Origin: Candidatus Zixiibacteriota bacterium
Lineage (GTDB): Bacteria; Zixibacteria; MSB-5A5; GN15; FEB-12
DNA length: 64,000 bases
Direction: 5' to 3'
Assembly (NCBI GenBank): GCA_040756055.1
Contig: JBFLZR010000001.1
Coordinates: forward strand, 313,849-377,848
Positions 30,021-63,364 of this stretch are shown one piece after another; within the stretch, counting starts at the first letter, position 1; each line of letters begins with the position of its first letter. The notes beneath the pieces are model-generated. The model searched no databases, had not been told where the DNA came from, and saw nothing but the letters and a program-made list of their open reading frames with translations. The position numbers and the translations under genes are program-made.

Positions 30021-31028
30021 TTAGGCCCGTTCCTTCACCGAATCGAGCACCCGCTTGATAATCTCGGTCGAATCCACACCATCGGCCTCGGCGTTAAACG
30101 ATGTTACAATGCGGTGGCGCAGAACCGGGTAAGCCGCAAAGCAGACATCCTCCGGGCCGGGGGTCGGCCTGCCCTCTAAAATTGCCTTGGTCTTGGCGGC
30201 GAGAATCAAATATTGCGAAGCACGCGGGCCGGCCCCCCAGTTGACCCAGCTTTTAACAAAATCGGGCGCGTTCGGCTCGGTCGGACGGGTAGTGCGAACC
30301 AGATCAACCGCGTATTCGATAAGATGATCCGAGACCGGCACCCGGCGAACCAGATTCTGAAATCCAATGATATCCTCAGGCGACAAAATCTTGTCCAACT
30401 CGTACGAAAGAACCGCTGTGGTCGATTTGACAATCTGATGTTCTTCGGAACTTGACGGATAATCCACGAGAACATTGAACATGAACCTATCAAGCTGAGC
30501 TTCCGGAAGAGGATAAGTGCCTTCCTGCTCTATCGGATTCTGCGTGGCCAGCACGAAAAACGGCTCGTCCAGAGCGTAAGTCTGTCCTGCCGCAGTAACT
30601 TCGTGCTCCTGCATGGCCTGCAAAAGAGCCGCTTGAGTCTTTGGAGGCGTGCGGTTGATCTCATCGGCCAAAATTATATTTGCGAAAACCGGGCCTTTCA
30701 CGAAGCGAAACTGACGCCGACCGGTCGAATGATCTTCTTCGATAATCTCCGTACCGGTAATGTCCGATGGCATCAAATCCGGAGTGAACTGGATGCGATT
30801 GAATTTCAGATTCAACACGCGGGCAAGAGTTGATATCAGCAGCGTCTTGGCAAGACCCGGCACACCCACCAGCAAACAGTGCCCGGAGGACAACAGGGAT
30901 ATCAGAAGCTGCTCGATAACCTGCTCCTGACCAATTATGACTTTTCCTATCTCGCTTTTGATGCTGGTATAAGCTGAATTCAGCGTTTCAACCGCCGCTA
31001 TATCAGATCCGGTCTGTTTGGACGACAT
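30021..31028 (-). CDS. MoxR family AAA+ ATPase
   Basis: The 335-aa protein starts with ATG at 31028, 5 nt after GGAGG; a TTG directly before it is less likely. It has Walker A GVPGLAKT, Walker B IILADEINR, the sensor stretch FVLATQNPIEQEGTYPLPEAQLDRF, and a C-terminal lid domain (GAGPRASQYLILAAK). MoxR ATPases act with vWA/DUF58 proteins in maturation of enzyme complexes and envelope integrity. It is the first gene of the unit moxR, membrane protein, isoaspartyl peptidase, DUF58, and it lies next to the candidate replication origin. Confidence 0.95.
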   Translation of the reverse strand: MSSKQTGSDIAAVETLNSAYTSIKSEIGKVIIGQEQVIEQLLISLLSSGHCLLVGVPGLAKTLLISTLARVLNLKFNRIQFTPDLMPSDITGTEIIEEDHSTGRRQFRFVKGPVFANIILADEINRTPPKTQAALLQAMQEHEVTAAGQTYALDEPFFVLATQNPIEQEGTYPLPEAQLDRFMFNVLVDYPSSSEEHQIVKSTTAVLSYELDKILSPEDIIGFQNLVRRVPVSDHLIEYAVDLVRTTRPTEPNAPDFVKSWVNWGAGPRASQYLILAAKTKAILEGRPTPGPEDVCFAAYPVLRHRIVTSFNAEADGVDSTEIIKRVLDSVKERA

Positions 31029-31422
31029 CAACTCCTCCGTAATTAGTTACCATCGTGCCAGTTTTTCGCACCAACGATTATTTATACAATACGTCCAGAG
31101 AAAAACATCGATTGCTCTTGAAAATATCCGGCAGACCCAAAGGCGCTTGTATGAAATAAAGCGATAATATTGGTCCGCTTTATGACAAGTCGGCAATTTG
31201 TGCCGGTAAATGGTCTTTTCAAAACAGGGGTTAAAATGGCCCCTGAGAAATGTTAGATTTACGCTAAACCTCGATAAAACTTTAACTTAAATCCAAATAA
31301 AATGTGGATAAACGAGTCGAAAAGTCCACTATCCGAAAAGGTTATCTTGTTTGTTAATAATAAGATAAGGGGTTATCCACAAAATGTACACCTTTTCCAC
31401 AAAAGTGCCGTATTGTCAACAA
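31029..31422. other. oriC: Candidate replication origin (oriC) with DnaA boxes
   Basis: This 394-bp AT-rich spacer contains two perfect DnaA boxes (TTATCCACA): one on the minus strand at 31303-31311 and one on the plus strand at 31373-31381. A one-mismatch box, TTTTCCACA, lies at 31393-31401. Between them is a very AT-rich segment (31341-31370) that could unwind. parA, parB and parS lie 2-6 kb away, as expected near an origin. Against it, dnaA is not adjacent, and the genes to the right are transcribed towards this site. A hairpin, AGGGG...CCCCT, lies at 31225-31243. Confidence 0.55.
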
Positions 31423-31851
31423 TCAGAAAATCTTCTTCTTATCCGCCGGCTCTACTTCCTTCTTTGGCTGCTCGGGGGGTAAAAATCCCAGGCTACCCTT
31501 GCTCTCCTTCATATTACAGGCGCCGCAGAAGACCGCCCCTTGCTCTATGACCAGTGATTTGGTTTTAAGATCACCTTCCATCTCGCATTTCGCCTGAAGT
31601 TCTATCTTCTCGCTTGTGACCACATTACCAACCATGCGGCCGGCGATAATAGCGGTGTTGGCCTCGATCTCGGCCTCAACGATCCCTGTCGAACCAACTG
31701 TCACACAGTCAGAGCAGATAATCTTTCCCTTTACCGTACCATCAACCCTCAGCGCTCCCTTAACATCGAGAGTCCCGTTGATGACAGTATCTTTGCCAAT
31801 AATGGTGTTCATTAATCCATCCACTTCGTTATTGTTAGTCTTTTTGATCAT
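31423..31851 (-). CDS. Bactofilin
   Basis: The 142-aa protein is a cytoplasmic polymer-forming bactofilin. It has a short N-terminal tail, a right-handed beta-helix core (TVINGTLDVKGALRVDGTVKG, then regular 16-18-residue turns), and a Pro/Lys-rich C-terminal tail. Bactofilins self-assemble without nucleotide and position wall hydrolases or chromosome-segregation proteins. The start codon lies inside the end of the M23 peptidase gene (17-bp overlap); an alternative ATG at 31812 is also possible. The neighbourhood of peptidase and ParAB matches known functional partners in other bacteria. Confidence 0.93.
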   Translation of the reverse strand: MIKKTNNNEVDGLMNTIIGKDTVINGTLDVKGALRVDGTVKGKIICSDCVTVGSTGIVEAEIEANTAIIAGRMVGNVVTSEKIELQAKCEMEGDLKTKSLVIEQGAVFCGACNMKESKGSLGFLPPEQPKKEVEPADKKKIF

Positions 31852-32622: not shown

Positions 32623-33471
32623 TCAGCCCTCGATTTTATGAAACAGTTCGACAAGGCGATCCAGATCCTCATCGCCGTAATACTCGATCTCTATTTTGCC
32701 CCGCTTCAGACCGGGACTGATTTTCACCGATGTCCCCAGAAGACGTTTGAGATAATTCTCAACTTCGGTGATGGCGGGAATCTTTCTCTTCGGTACCAGC
32801 CGCCGTTTTTTCGTACGCCGCGTCTCGTCCTCCACCTGCCTGACCGACATAGAACCGGAGACTATCTGCTCGGCCATGCGAAGCATCGCCGGCTGATTAT
32901 CCAGCGACAAAATCGCCCGGGCGTGTCCCTCGGTAAGCTTTCCCTGACGAATCATCTGCTTGATCTCATCGGGAAGAGTGTTCAACCTCAACACGTTCGC
33001 CACCGAGGCGCGACTCTTACCGACCCGCTCGGCCAACTCGTTCTGCGTGAGATTGCACTCTTCGATCAACCGACGATACGCCTGCGCCATCTCCATCGGA
33101 TTGAGATCCTCGCGCTGAAGATTCTCCACCAGCGCCAACTCGAGCATGCGCGTGTCGGCAACGTCGCCCGCGACCATCACAGGCACCTCCGTCATACCCG
33201 CCATCCGCGCCGCCCGGTAACGCCTCTCGCCGGCGATGATCGTAAAACCGCCGCCGTTGACGCGCACCACCAGCGGCTGCATGATACCGTTGACCTTGAA
33301 CGAATCGGCCAGATCGCGAAGACCGGCTTCATCGAAATCGCGACGGGGCTGCATCGGATTGGGACCTATCTTATCGAGCGCCACCATGCGATACTTGTTC
33401 TCCTCCGACACCACCCTGCTGTCACCGGGAATCAACGCTCCCAGCCCTTTTCCAAGAACTATCTTACTCAT
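32623..33471 (-). CDS. parB: Chromosome partitioning protein ParB
   Basis: The 282-aa protein has the ParB order: a short N-terminal ParA-stimulating segment (KGLGALIP), the CTPase/ParB-N domain with GERRYRAA and ENLQREDLNPMEMAQAY, a helix-turn-helix (TQNELAERVGKSRASVANVLR), and a C-terminal dimer domain. ParB binds parS, hydrolyses CTP as a sliding clamp and loads condensin. The start overlaps the parA stop by 4 bp. A perfect parS target lies 1.3 kb upstream, in rsmG. Confidence 0.97.
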   Translation of the reverse strand: MSKIVLGKGLGALIPGDSRVVSEENKYRMVALDKIGPNPMQPRRDFDEAGLRDLADSFKVNGIMQPLVVRVNGGGFTIIAGERRYRAARMAGMTEVPVMVAGDVADTRMLELALVENLQREDLNPMEMAQAYRRLIEECNLTQNELAERVGKSRASVANVLRLNTLPDEIKQMIRQGKLTEGHARAILSLDNQPAMLRMAEQIVSGSMSVRQVEDETRRTKKRRLVPKRKIPAITEVENYLKRLLGTSVKISPGLKRGKIEIEYYGDEDLDRLVELFHKIEG

Positions 33472-34226
33472 CGCGTAAGCACCTCTTTTGTAAACGACAT
33501 ATAATTTTCCGCTCCGGTCGACATGATATCGTAAAGGATGATCGGCTTGCCGAACGACGGCGCCTCCGACAACCTCACGTTGCGCGATATCACCGTATTG
33601 TAAACCTTGCTGTCGAAATGCTTGCGCACCTCGTCGGACACCTGCCTCGACAGATTCAGACGACTGTCGAACATCGTAAGAAGAACACCTTCGATCTGAA
33701 GATTCGGGTTGAGATTATCCTGCACCAGCTTCACGGTGTTCATGAGCTGCCCCAACCCTTCCATCGCGTAATACTCGCACTGGATGGGAATGATGATCGA
33801 ATCAGCCGCCGTAAGCGTGTTAAGCGTCAAAAGACCCAGCGAGGGAGGGCAGTCGATAATGATATATTTGTAATCATCGAGAATGGGGGCCAACGCGCTC
33901 TTTAATCGCGTCTCGCGCGCCAGCATCGACACCAGCTCCACTTCGGCGCCGACCAGGGAGATCGATGACGGCACGATGTTGAGATACTGAAGTTCGGTCG
34001 GCTGCACCACTTCTTTCATGGTTTTATTGCCGATCAGAACATCGTAGATAGATGACTCTATTTTTTCTTTGTCGAGACCCACCCCGCTGGTGGAGTTGGC
34101 CTGCGGATCCATGTCAATCAGACAGGTCTTGTGCTCGGCGGCTGCCAGGCAGGAACTCAGATTAATCGCCGTGGTGGTCTTGCCCACACCGCCCTTTTGA
34201 TTCGTAATCGCGATAACTTTGCCCAA
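33468..34226 (-). CDS. parA: Chromosome partitioning ATPase ParA/Soj
   Basis: The 252-aa protein begins with the deviant Walker A KGGVGKTT (residues 11-18) and has the Walker B-type IIIDCPPSLGLLT. It lacks the N-terminal DNA-binding extension of plasmid ParA proteins, so it is of the chromosomal Soj type. It moves ParB-parS complexes to the poles. It is followed by parB with a 4-bp overlap and preceded by rsmG with a 75-bp gap. Confidence 0.97.
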   Translation of the reverse strand: MGKVIAITNQKGGVGKTTTAINLSSCLAAAEHKTCLIDMDPQANSTSGVGLDKEKIESSIYDVLIGNKTMKEVVQPTELQYLNIVPSSISLVGAEVELVSMLARETRLKSALAPILDDYKYIIIDCPPSLGLLTLNTLTAADSIIIPIQCEYYAMEGLGQLMNTVKLVQDNLNPNLQIEGVLLTMFDSRLNLSRQVSDEVRKHFDSKVYNTVISRNVRLSEAPSFGKPIILYDIMSTGAENYMSFTKEVLTR

Positions 34227-34301: not shown

Positions 34302-34925
34302 CTAAACGATTTTGCGGCAGATAGTGAAGCTTTTGGTGGGAGCGTCTACTGACGTTTTATAACAATAAGTTACGCAGGACATCGATTTGGGCGTTTCCAA
34401 ATCACTAGCGGCAGCATAATAGATGAAAATACCACTGCTCGCGAGCACGGAATCGATCTTCTTGAGAACCCTTTTCGTCAACGCGACCAGCCTGAGAGTA
34501 ACGAGATCAAACTGCCCCTCAAACGAGAGCTCTTCGAAATTCCCCTCGACTATTTCCACGGAAGTACTATCCATGTAAAGCCCCCTGACAATTCGGCCAA
34601 GAGCCAGCGACTTCTTCGAAACGCGCTCTACAAGCGTGGCTTTCTCGATCGGCTTGGTGAGAAGTATAGGAAATGCCGGGAGGCCCCCGCCGCTGCCAAT
34701 ATCCAGGTAATTTCGAAAAGGCTGACGTTCGATCTGGTCAAAGGGGAGAAGCGATTCCGCCGCCAGAATCTCCAGCCCGGAATCAATTGTTTCACGTGAA
34801 ACAAGGTTGATTTTCTGATTCTCAGCCTTAAGAATTTCAAAATATCTGGTCAACCGCAAGTCCGGGTCGTGCCTTCTAAGAAGCTCAACGGGAGCGAGTT
34901 CGATGATATCGCCGTTTTTGGTCAT
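34302..34925 (-). CDS. rsmG: 16S rRNA (guanine-527-N7)-methyltransferase
   Basis: The 207-aa protein has the S-adenosylmethionine-binding motif YLDIGSGGGLPAFP and the KINLVSRE segment of RsmG. It methylates G527 of 16S rRNA; loss gives low-level streptomycin resistance in other bacteria. The codons for LVSRET contain a perfect parS site. The ATG overlaps the mnmG stop by 4 bp, a gene order conserved near many origins. Confidence 0.95.
   Translation of the reverse strand: MTKNGDIIELAPVELLRRHDPDLRLTRYFEILKAENQKINLVSRETIDSGLEILAAESLLPFDQIERQPFRNYLDIGSGGGLPAFPILLTKPIEKATLVERVSKKSLALGRIVRGLYMDSTSVEIVEGNFEELSFEGQFDLVTLRLVALTKRVLKKIDSVLASSGIFIYYAAASDLETPKSMSCVTYCYKTSVDAPTKSFTICRKIV
34788..34803. 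other. parS: parS site (perfect palindrome) inside rsmG
   Basis: The 16 bp TGTTTCACGTGAAACA match the bacterial parS consensus TGTTNCACGTGAAACA exactly. ParB is encoded 1.3 kb away in the same operon. Confidence 0.92.
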
Positions 34926-36876: not shown

Positions 36877-36892
36877 TGTTTCACGTGTAACA
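36877..36892. other. parS: Second parS-like site upstream of mnmG
   Basis: TGTTTCACGTGTAACA differs from the perfect palindrome at one position (T for A at position 13). It lies in the divergent spacer between mnmG and the first lipoprotein gene, 2.1 kb from the first parS. Confidence 0.75.
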
Positions 36893-42533: not shown

Positions 42534-42834
42534 TGATAATTTCGAAATCGGCCTGGCCGACTTTCTGTTTCGGAAGAATCGCTATGCTCACCGGCTGTTT
42601 GAGCGCGCGTCGGTTGAGTCTAACAGCTTCCCTGACAAGGCGTTTCAGTCTGTTTCTGTCGGCGGCTGAGCCAAACTTGCGGGAAACAAAAACGCCGTAC
42701 CGGAACTCCTCGCTTTTCTCCCACGAAAGAGAAAAATAATCCCCAGAGATTCTCTTTCCTTGTTTCAGAAGGCGGTCGATATCAGCCCGGGATTTCAGGC
42801 TGAGTCTCCGGGGTAATTTATTTCTTCCGAGCAA
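42487..42834 (-). CDS. rnpA: Ribonuclease P protein component
   Basis: The 115-aa protein has the RnpA motif [19 protein letters not shown], which contacts P RNA and the pre-tRNA leader, plus the preceding [10 protein letters not shown] strand. The only suitable start is TTG at 42834, which lies inside the last codons of rpmH (17-bp overlap). The overlap points to translational coupling of ribosomal protein L34 and RNase P protein. Confidence 0.93.
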
Positions 42835-42970
42835 CTTTGACAGTCAGTCTTTTTCTGCCCTTCGCACGGCGTCTGGCCAGCACTTTGCGGCCGCCTTTCG
42901 TGGCCATCCGGGCCCGAAAACCGTGGTCATTGAGCATCTTCTCGTTTGAAGGCTGATATGTCCGTTTCAT
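42818..42970 (-). CDS. rpmH: Ribosomal protein bL34
   Basis: The 50-aa protein begins [20 protein letters not shown] and has the [17 protein letters not shown] core of L34, with a slightly longer basic C-terminus than the E. coli protein. GAGGTGAC precedes the ATG, and a sigma70-like promoter lies 32 bp upstream. It is the first gene of the rpmH-rnpA-yidD-yidC-mnmE operon. dnaA, which often lies divergently upstream, is absent here. Confidence 0.97.
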
Positions 42971-56662: not shown

Positions 56663-57204
56663 CTGCCTTCCTGCCTTCCTTTACTGATTCTCACGGCGGA
56701 TTCGAAGCCACCATCGGTGGACTTTGACGGACCCACCCTGCGAATTTAAGGTACAGCTTTGAGACGTGAATGTCACCTGGAAATTATTCACGACAATATC
56801 GCCGTATCTGTCTGGCTGCGCTGCGCCCCACCCTTTGCGGCATGTTGAATAACCTTGCCGCCGTTGTGTCAGGTCTTGATTTCGACGAAGTCGGAATTAT
56901 GACCTGAGGCACAAGCAGAGACCGTCAGATGACATCCCCGACACCATCGGCGACAGCATCTGACGAAACGAGACATGGACCCGCTCGGTAGAAAAGAAAC
57001 TCAATCCCGTTGTGTCAGGTCTTGGCCCGACGAAGTCGGGGTGTGACCTGACACATGAGTCCGAGCGCAGCACAAGCGCCGGGTGGGTCTCCGCGAAATG
57101 GTGGCTTGATTTTGACCCGGTCCATGGATATCTTAAGTTGTCGTGATTATCCGTGACCATCTCGCGTCCGCTATGCGGCTCTATCTGAGAGGGAGAAAAT
57201 CGGG
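56663..57204. repeat. Repeat-bearing spacer upstream of the TPR membrane protein gene
   Basis: No gene is seen. Two copies of the GTGTCAGGTC...GACCTGACAC palindrome occur at 56866-56912 and 57011-57054, each with an inner CGACGAAGTCGG hairpin. The rest is unremarkable. Confidence 0.75.
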
Positions 57205-59271: not shown

Positions 59272-59293
59272 GTCGAAACTCCTGCCCGTGAGC

Positions 59294-59411
59294 GGCAGAA
59301 GTCCCCATCTGCCCTAACCGAGCCGACTCCCCATACCGTGAGCGGCAGATGTCCTCATCTGCCCTAACCGAGCCGACCCCCAACCGTGAGCGGCAGATGT
59401 CCCCATCTGCC
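59294..59411. repeat. Tandem array of three REP-like palindromes
   Basis: The palindrome GGCAGATGTCCYCATCTGCC (or near variants) occurs at 59294, 59344 and 59392, 48-50 bp apart. Conserved text (CTAACCGAGCCGAC) lies between copies. It lies immediately upstream of the transposase gene. Confidence 0.9.
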
Positions 59412-59419
59412 CTGCAGAC

Positions 59420-59448
59420 TTGACAACCAGTCCCATGCCGTATTATCT
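59420..59448 (+). promoter_or_regulatory. Promoter of the REP-associated transposase
   Basis: TTGACA (59420-59425) and TTATCT (59443-59448) are 17 bp apart. The start codon follows 10 bp after the -10 box, so the transcript is nearly leaderless. Confidence 0.5.
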
Positions 59449-59457
59449 TTGCTCATC

Positions 59458-59994
59458 ATGGTCGTCCGTAAGAGACTTGCTATCACCGGACGAGCCCTTG
59501 CATTCCTAACCACTACTGCTTACCAATGGACACCGATTTTCGGGGAGGGCATCGTCGCAAAAGTTGTCGTTAATAAACTGCGTGAAGCAACCGAGCACTT
59601 TAGGGTCTCCGTGGTGGGATATGTTCTTATGCCGAGCCACCTTCATATGTTGTTGGGGTTTCCCAAAATTGCCGGATTGTCGAGATTCATGCAAAGTTTT
59701 AAGATATTGAGTTCAAAGGCAGTTAAGATTGACGTCCCGCAGGATCATCTGGCCCCTTTCATGACCACGTCAGGGTTCCGACTTTGGAAACCGCGTTTCG
59801 ACGACCTGATCGTGACTTCCGATAGACAATTCAGGATAAAGCTCGAATACATTCATAACAATCCGGTGAGAGCGGGCTTAGTGACGCGGGCAGAGGAGTG
59901 GCGATTCTCAAGTGCATCGGACTGGCTGCTGGGCAAGACCGGTCCGCTGCCTGTGGACAAACGGTGCGAATGGTTGATACGCGGGGGCAGATGA
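59458..59994 (+). CDS. REP-associated tyrosine transposase (Y1 HUH type)
   Basis: The 178-aa protein has the HUH motif PSHLHMLLG and the downstream active-site Tyr in LEYIHNNPVRAGLV, plus the C-terminal WRFSSASDWL. These RAYT enzymes process single-stranded palindromic REP sequences. Its gene lies between a three-copy REP array (59294-59411) and an inverted copy (59986-60005) that overlaps the stop codon. It is probably intact. The start at ATG 59458 fits the promoter at 59420-59448. Confidence 0.92.
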   Translation: MVVRKRLAITGRALAFLTTTAYQWTPIFGEGIVAKVVVNKLREATEHFRVSVVGYVLMPSHLHMLLGFPKIAGLSRFMQSFKILSSKAVKIDVPQDHLAPFMTTSGFRLWKPRFDDLIVTSDRQFRIKLEYIHNNPVRAGLVTRAEEWRFSSASDWLLGKTGPLPVDKRCEWLIRGGR

Positions 59995-62658: not shown

Positions 62659-62765
62659 TAGGCGTTTGATTCATCAAACGCGACATCACGCCTCTCTCCC
62701 CCTCGCCCTTCGGGAGAGGGTCGGGGTGAGGGGTTACAGCAAAAATAATGAAACGAAGCCAAATG
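62659..62765 (-). repeat. Inverted copy of the 138-bp dispersed repeat
   Basis: It contains GTAGGCGTTTGATTCATCAAACGC and the CTCGCCCTTCGGGAGAGGGTCGG hairpin, in reverse orientation to 43671-43808 and 44091-44228. Confidence 0.85.
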
Positions 62766-63100
62766 GGCGAAACGATATGGCTGATAAGAAAATACAGGGG
62801 ACAATAAAAGGCAGAAAAGCGCCTTTTGATCGGATTCACGCGACCCGAGCTGTCGCGTGTGACTGGACCCCTGCTTTCGCAGGGGTGACTCGAATGAGGC
62901 GTTCAAAGCAAAAAATGACGAAACGAAGCCAAATGGACGAAACGATATGGCTGGCAAGAAAATACAAGGAACAATCAAAGACTGGAACACGCCTTTTGGT
63001 CGGATTCACGCGACCCGATCTGTCGCGTGTGACTGGACCCCTGCTTTCGCAGGCGTGACTCGATTGAGGCGTTCAGAGCAAGAATTAGCGAAACGAAGCC
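62761..63100. repeat. Tandem duplication of a 170-bp unit
   Basis: Units 62761-62930 and 62931-63100 have an exact 170-bp period with scattered differences. Each contains CGCGACCCG...CGCGTGTGACTGGACCC and the hairpin CCCCTGCTTTCGCAGG(G/C)G. Long open frames here are products of the repeat. Confidence 0.9.
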
Positions 63101-63364
63101 AAATGTCGGTACCAGAAAGATGTCAAAACCTTCATCTGACGATGAACCCTGTCGGGCAGGGGATTTTGACCTACAAAAGAAGCGGCGTGAATGGTAGGGG
63201 TTTGATTTATTAAATGCACCCATGCGCGTCAAAAACACAAAAATAACGAAACGAAGCCAATTCTCTGTAACTGAAAAAACAACAACCGACTACAAGGATT
63301 TTTCGAGCCGATTTTCAGCGGAAATCTTGATTCCGCTAAACCCGTTCACTAACTTAAATAACGT

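Follow-up and report, generated by a model that had tools for sequence, protein, structure and literature searches.

A phylum-wide DnaA-box element beside parAB in Zixibacteria: candidate chromosomal origin or initiation-control site

The DNA analyzed here, a 64-kb window (C1:313849–377848), comes from a genome of the phylum Zixibacteria (G000) that comprises 3.3 Mb in 12 contigs; those relatives that bear names belong to Candidatus Zixiibacteriota. The spacer between a moxR-type ATPase gene and the bactofilin gene bacA holds three DnaA boxes, a dyad and an AT-rich flank (Table 1). To the right of bacA follow genes for an M23 peptidase, parB, parA, rsmG, mnmG, mnmE, yidC, rnpA and rpmH, all on the minus strand. 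The original prediction had placed parA, parB and two parS-like sites to the right of the boxes, and these positions are accurate; the exact parS is the sole one in 738 kb of the 747-kb contig C1. It had also noted that the genes to the right are transcribed towards the boxes, as is indeed the case for the entire bacA–rpmH block, which would be head-on to a fork departing from an origin at this site. Of the further claim, that the usual place upstream of rpmH with dnaA contains no DnaA box, the part concerning rpmH holds; dnaA, however, is not located at rpmH but outside the window.

Table 1. Features of the moxR–bacA spacer and its surroundings (window positions unless contig C1 is named)
Feature	Position	Strand	Remarks
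moxR-type AAA ATPase gene	30021–31031	−	Pfam AAA_3; start (31031) faces the element
moxR–bacA spacer	31032–31422		391 bp; holds the element
AT-rich flank outside box 1	31243–31302		73% AT in the window copy; short TA-rich motifs
DnaA box 1, TTATCCACA, perfect	31303–31311	−	orientation opposite to that of boxes 2 and 3; near-invariant across an alignment of 30 relatives
Dyad YAW-N4-TTR-N5-YAA-N4-WTR	31343–31367		25 bp; centre 18 bp left of box 2
DnaA box 2, TTATCCACA, perfect	31373–31381	+	70 bp start-to-start from box 1; aligned with relatives
DnaA box 3, TTTTCCACA	31393–31401	+	20 bp start-to-start from box 2; aligned with relatives
bacA (bactofilin)	31423–31851	−	Pfam Bactofilin; stop at 31423; transcription towards the element
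parB	32623–33471	−	Pfam ParB_N, HTH_ParB
parA	33468–34226	−	Pfam AAA_31
parS, exact TGTTTCACGTGAAACA	34788–34803		within the rsmG coding sequence
parS-like, TGTTTCACGTGTAACA	36877–36892		one mismatch; upstream of mnmG
rpmH	42818–42970	−	far end of the classic block
dnaA	C1:402477–403841	−	beyond the window, 58 kb to the right of the boxes

Two perfect boxes and a third box lie, as had been claimed, inside 99 bp of the moxR–bacA spacer. The accompanying expectation that such a cluster is improbable by chance was borne out in two ways: two perfect boxes at most 110 bp apart never occurred when the 64-kb window was simulated 300 times with a first-order Markov model, and the triplet recurs throughout the phylum. 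Apart from this pair, no two perfect boxes in 738 kb of the 747-kb contig are closer together than 11 kb. Although matches to 9-mers of this kind are more frequent in AT-rich intergenic DNA, we regard the probability that box-like sequences merely clustered by chance in an AT-rich spacer as practically negligible, given the simulations and an identical geometry throughout the phylum; the conservation already refutes it. The element furthermore has at least three boxes with a mean spacing below 100 bp, an oriC criterion quoted in PMC7561715.

In relatives, the spacer shows the arrangement box(−), 69–70 bp, box(+), 20 bp, box(+), which is maintained in at least 30 genera and at parB identities as low as 58%. 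A pattern requiring this exact geometry was found once per genome in 25 of 61 relatives and not at all in reversed controls. A sequence-only profile built from 30 copies of the element matched 105 of 133 genomes of the phylum, in 69 of 85 genera; of the high-quality relatives, 36 of 37 were matched. Nearly always there was a single strong match per genome. G057, a joined assembly, has two strong copies, each with its own parB copy alongside. Among the 102 genomes with tabulated positions, parB is no more than 2 kb away and oriented at the element in 87 (median distance 1.2 kb). The element thus displays three further properties listed for origins, i.e., conservation in relatives, one copy per chromosome and nearby indicator genes, and it is the sole conserved DnaA-box array common to the relatives examined.

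In G003 the element seemed to be missing, which was explained by an assembly joint, a run of 100 Ns. Five assemblies labelled as a single contig or chromosome (G001, G002, G003, G031 and G057) consist of contigs joined by such runs; the joints were observed directly in G002 (CP070756), G003 (CP070777; coordinates match for both) and G031, as well as in the named loci of the CP0707xx series. Neither whole-chromosome skew nor the order of genes across a joint can be used in joined assemblies, and we rejected the whole-chromosome skew of G002, G003 and G031 because these are pseudo-chromosomes.

The element is not bound to any one neighboring gene. It retains moxR while parB is not adjacent in G131, and likewise in G132, where parB was not found; conversely, it retains parB and not moxR in G096 and G103. 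In family f3 it stays with moxR, 3–5 kb from parB; in f7 (G068, G069) it lies 1.4 kb upstream of dnaA with no moxR beside it; and in f18 (G124, G125) its contig is without parB, dnaA and moxR, the element still being conserved between two genera. The dnaA gene occurs on either side of the element, mostly 2–60 kb away. The two sides are balanced, but the count is restricted by the extent of the contigs, and we therefore did not use it as proof.

Column conservation revealed that the box columns are near-invariant and that, with the exception of the dyad, the remaining spacer is mostly random. In the window copy the dyad forms an inverted repeat whose halves, when read outward, are both similar to the IHF-type core CAANNNNTTR, the core of the consensus WATCAANNNNTTR quoted in PMC4585315. 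At the exact dyad offset, at least one half carried an IHF core in 28 (relaxed) or 19 (strict) of 37 sequences, compared with 0.2–0.6% on average at other offsets. Judging from these motifs, the dyad is likely the site of a DNA-bending protein of the HU/IHF type; its symmetry would suit a homodimer, and the phylum encodes a protein of the HU/IHF family (locus L157). When we looked for the dyad at dnaA promoters, none was found. A conserved hairpin between boxes 1 and 2 had also been considered; base-pair covariation supported no consistent stem, and the sequence dyad was adopted instead.

Outside box 1, three motifs recur in relatives (CTTGA near −56, YTAAC near −41 and STTAR near −19), and the flank is a candidate unwinding region. 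Its AT content averages only about 0.6 in relatives, as against 73% in the window copy, and no strongly AT-rich conserved element was seen among the relatives' flanks. A basal unwinding signature (BUS) consists of a DnaA box plus DnaA-trios, 3'-[G/A]A[T/A]-5', at most 16 bp from the box (PMC8287927). A strict signature of this type is not conserved: inspection by eye showed a trio-like TAATAATAAGATAAG-GGG run ahead of box 2 in the window copy, a run that the relatives in the alignment do not share.

A GC-skew minimum at the boxes, proposed originally as a check, is at least partly contradicted: the cumulative minimum of C1 lies at 373.4 kb (window position 59534), 28 kb to their right. In a gene-by-gene model of third codon positions, the combined range of all fits placed the change-point of G000 27–38 kb to the right of the element (C1 372–383 kb), and the same model placed that of G010 at 339–354 kb, 13–28 kb to the right of an element at 326 kb. 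Setting the switch at the element made the fit poorer by 17–46 log units in G000 and 12–19 in G010; setting it at dnaA did so by 27–29 and 18–31 log units, respectively. Coincidence with the skew switch, a further oriC criterion, is therefore not seen, the switch being 13–38 kb off in the two genomes. In G010 it is 19 kb from the element versus 36 kb from dnaA, which lies on the element's far side, and the only two perfect boxes within 400 kb around the switch are those of the element. In G039, provided that its scaffold order is correct, dnaA is again farther from the switch than the element is; since this is a gapped scaffold, only its local stretch was used with confidence. In G000, G010 and G039, which belong to three genera, the third-position skew of genes in the bacA–rpmH block is of the left-replichore type, and forks therefore seem to have long crossed the block leftwards. 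The bacA–parB end of this block is attached to the element throughout the order.

An origin at the skew switch itself was rejected, as no box cluster is present there in G000 or G010; local genes include those for an IscU/NifU-type scaffold and birA. Neither a symmetric-inversion centre from G000–G010 synteny, in which gene order is too scrambled, nor skewed octamers as a proxy in other genomes, where the signal is too weak, proved useful. Near the skew minimum, at window positions 59386–59994, lies a gene that by eye resembles a REP-associated (RAYT-type) transposase; beside it is a 50-bp tandem repeat of 2.6 copies (59286–59413), and a 170-bp tandem repeat follows at 62727–63105. Recent insertions may blur the skew there. 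The spacer at a gene-strand switch (56780–57110) contains a repeated motif, TTGTGTCAGGTCTTG..CGACGAAGTCGG..TGACCTGA, that resembles a REP or palindromic repeat.

The competing location is dnaA. Seven boxes with at most one mismatch flank the G000 gene (C1:402281–404035), five upstream and two in the AT-rich dnaA–dnaN spacer; four of them are TTATCAACA and one only is a perfect match. This bipartite box layout, known from the dnaA regions of Bacillus subtilis and Clostridioides difficile (PMC7561715), is shared by the G000 dnaA flanks. In relatives, the flanking boxes occupy semi-regular positions (about −200, −120 and −30; +21, +59 and +101), and the 250 bp downstream of dnaA average 67% AT. 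Many relatives have a bipartite, oriC-like set of boxes at dnaA: three or more strong boxes are present in 18 of 30 relatives and fewer than three in the other 12; none flank the gene in G011, G026 and G027, all three of which retain the element. A stronger cluster beside dnaA, named in the original prediction as evidence against it, thus exists by number of boxes; in quality it has a single perfect match, and it is weak or absent in some relatives. An origin at dnaA, off the skew switch in G000 and G010 and devoid of boxes in those three relatives, was rejected as less probable. Weak partial matches to the profile occur directly upstream of dnaA in G091, G092, G093, G097, G098, G106, G107 and G109, which belong to other families; most consist of the inverted box 1–box 2 part, hinting that the dnaA promoter may share a paired-box layout with the element.

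On balance, we lean, at slightly better than even probability, towards the boxes being the DnaA-binding core of a compact chromosomal origin, usually located between moxR and bacA–parAB and not beside dnaA. DnaA would bind the outward-facing box 1 and the direct pair formed by boxes 2 and 3; an HU/IHF-type protein would bend the DNA at the dyad, bringing box 1 to boxes 2 and 3; and the resulting ATP-DnaA oligomer could then open the AT-rich flank outside box 1, so that replication would start at the element. The origin that had been predicted at the boxes accordingly fares unevenly: a phylum-wide, usually single-copy element fixed beside parABS with an oriC-like layout speaks for it, while the skew switch lies elsewhere and more boxes lie at dnaA. 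The head-on transcription of the bacA–rpmH block, the small number of boxes, the moderate AT content of the relatives' flanks and the f18 contig lacking parB, dnaA and moxR count against an origin here, as do the oriC-like dnaA flanks of many relatives, and no candidate site shows every property listed for origins.

The chief alternative, which we consider possible though somewhat less probable than an origin, is an origin-proximal control site of the datA, DARS or DnaA-titration kind, at which looped DnaA would alter its nucleotide state or free amount and thereby set the timing of initiation at a separate origin no more than about 60 kb away, in the dnaA flanks or at an unrecognized site near the skew switch. 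datA stimulates the hydrolysis of DnaA-bound ATP, while DARS has a conserved three-box core that promotes the release of ADP from DnaA. A control site would be consistent with the lack of a skew switch at the element and the left-replichore skew of the neighboring block, with a parts list that is the same as that of minimal Escherichia coli datA, with the three boxes that also make up the DARS core (PMC4585315), with the precedent of B. subtilis, where a strong DnaA site distinct from the origin lies upstream of trmE (PMC4447404), with dnaA flanks that are oriC-like in many relatives, and with the location of the f18 element away from parB and dnaA. However, we found no alternative origin common to all relatives, the three without boxes at dnaA included; dnaA is off the switch, where G000 and G010 have no box cluster; it would be unusual for a control site to be under stricter conservation than the origin throughout a phylum; and the TA-rich motifs outside box 1 would be given no role. 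Control of transcription, with DnaA and a dimeric regulator acting at the promoter of moxR, at a distance of 270 bp, or limiting bacA read-through, appears very improbable. In most genomes moxR has the element upstream of it, and the two remain together in G131, G132 and f3, but the distance between the two ranges from about 90 to 1300 bp, moxR is not beside the element in G096, G103, f7 and f18, and a fixed 70/20-bp three-box geometry is unexpected for a promoter site. Our preference for the origin has three grounds: no other conserved DnaA array is common to the relatives, the parts follow an oriC-like order, and the element is linked to parABS; the skew offset, the few boxes and the datA-like parts list are the reasons that a control site remains a close contender.

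Origins not located at dnaA are already known; new are the strict, phylum-wide element with an IHF-type dyad and its conflict with skew. We tentatively suggest, at less than even confidence, that this single compact element of DnaA boxes and an HU/IHF-type site is, of the replication-control DNA found here in an entire uncultured phylum, the most strictly conserved and yet that strand asymmetry switches 13–38 kb away from it, so that either the skew switch has a systematic offset from the actual origin or conservation is stricter for a datA-like site than for the origin that it serves. Zixibacteria, examined here through metagenome assemblies only, thereby gain a precise, testable origin or initiation-control element, with what would be an HU/IHF-type bend site within a DnaA array far from Proteobacteria, and the conservation of the DnaA boxes stands in clear conflict with GC skew.

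Among known systems, minimal E. coli datA has three essential boxes and one IHF site at critical spacing near oriC (PMC10380432). The element resembles it in having three boxes and, from its sequence, one IHF-type site at strict spacing, and in being origin-proximal, intergenic and single-copy; it differs in being phylum-wide and fixed beside parABS, in its TA-rich motifs outside box 1, and in being known from sequence alone. With the E. coli loci DARS1 and DARS2 (PMC4585315, PMC4245941) it shares a three-box core, which in DARS2 is accompanied by helper-protein sites; the agreement is in box number only, as no homologous core was seen, the HU/IHF-type site is within the box array and the location is beside parAB. 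In B. subtilis, the bipartite oriC is at dnaA, and the trmE–jag site, upstream of trmE (mnmE), is a strong secondary DnaA site distinct from the origin (PMC4447404). Like the element, it is close to the rpmH–mnmE–parAB block; it differs in being upstream of trmE, whereas the element lies downstream of parB, and in the presence of the origin at dnaA. In the Ori-Finder survey, oriC was at dnaA near the skew switch in only 342 of 568 chromosomes (PMC2275245), and the element is similar to those oriCs that are not adjacent to dnaA; unlike the element, however, such predictions normally coincide with the skew switch. The left half of E. coli oriC has the order DUE, R1, IHF site, R5M (PMC10380432). 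There, left-half boxes share one orientation whereas box 1 is inverted here, and the element has three boxes only, no recognizable 13-mer repeats and a skew switch 13–38 kb away; yet it presents an AT-rich flank, a DnaA box, an IHF-type site and further boxes in the same order and, as in E. coli, the region adjoins mnmG-type genes away from dnaA.
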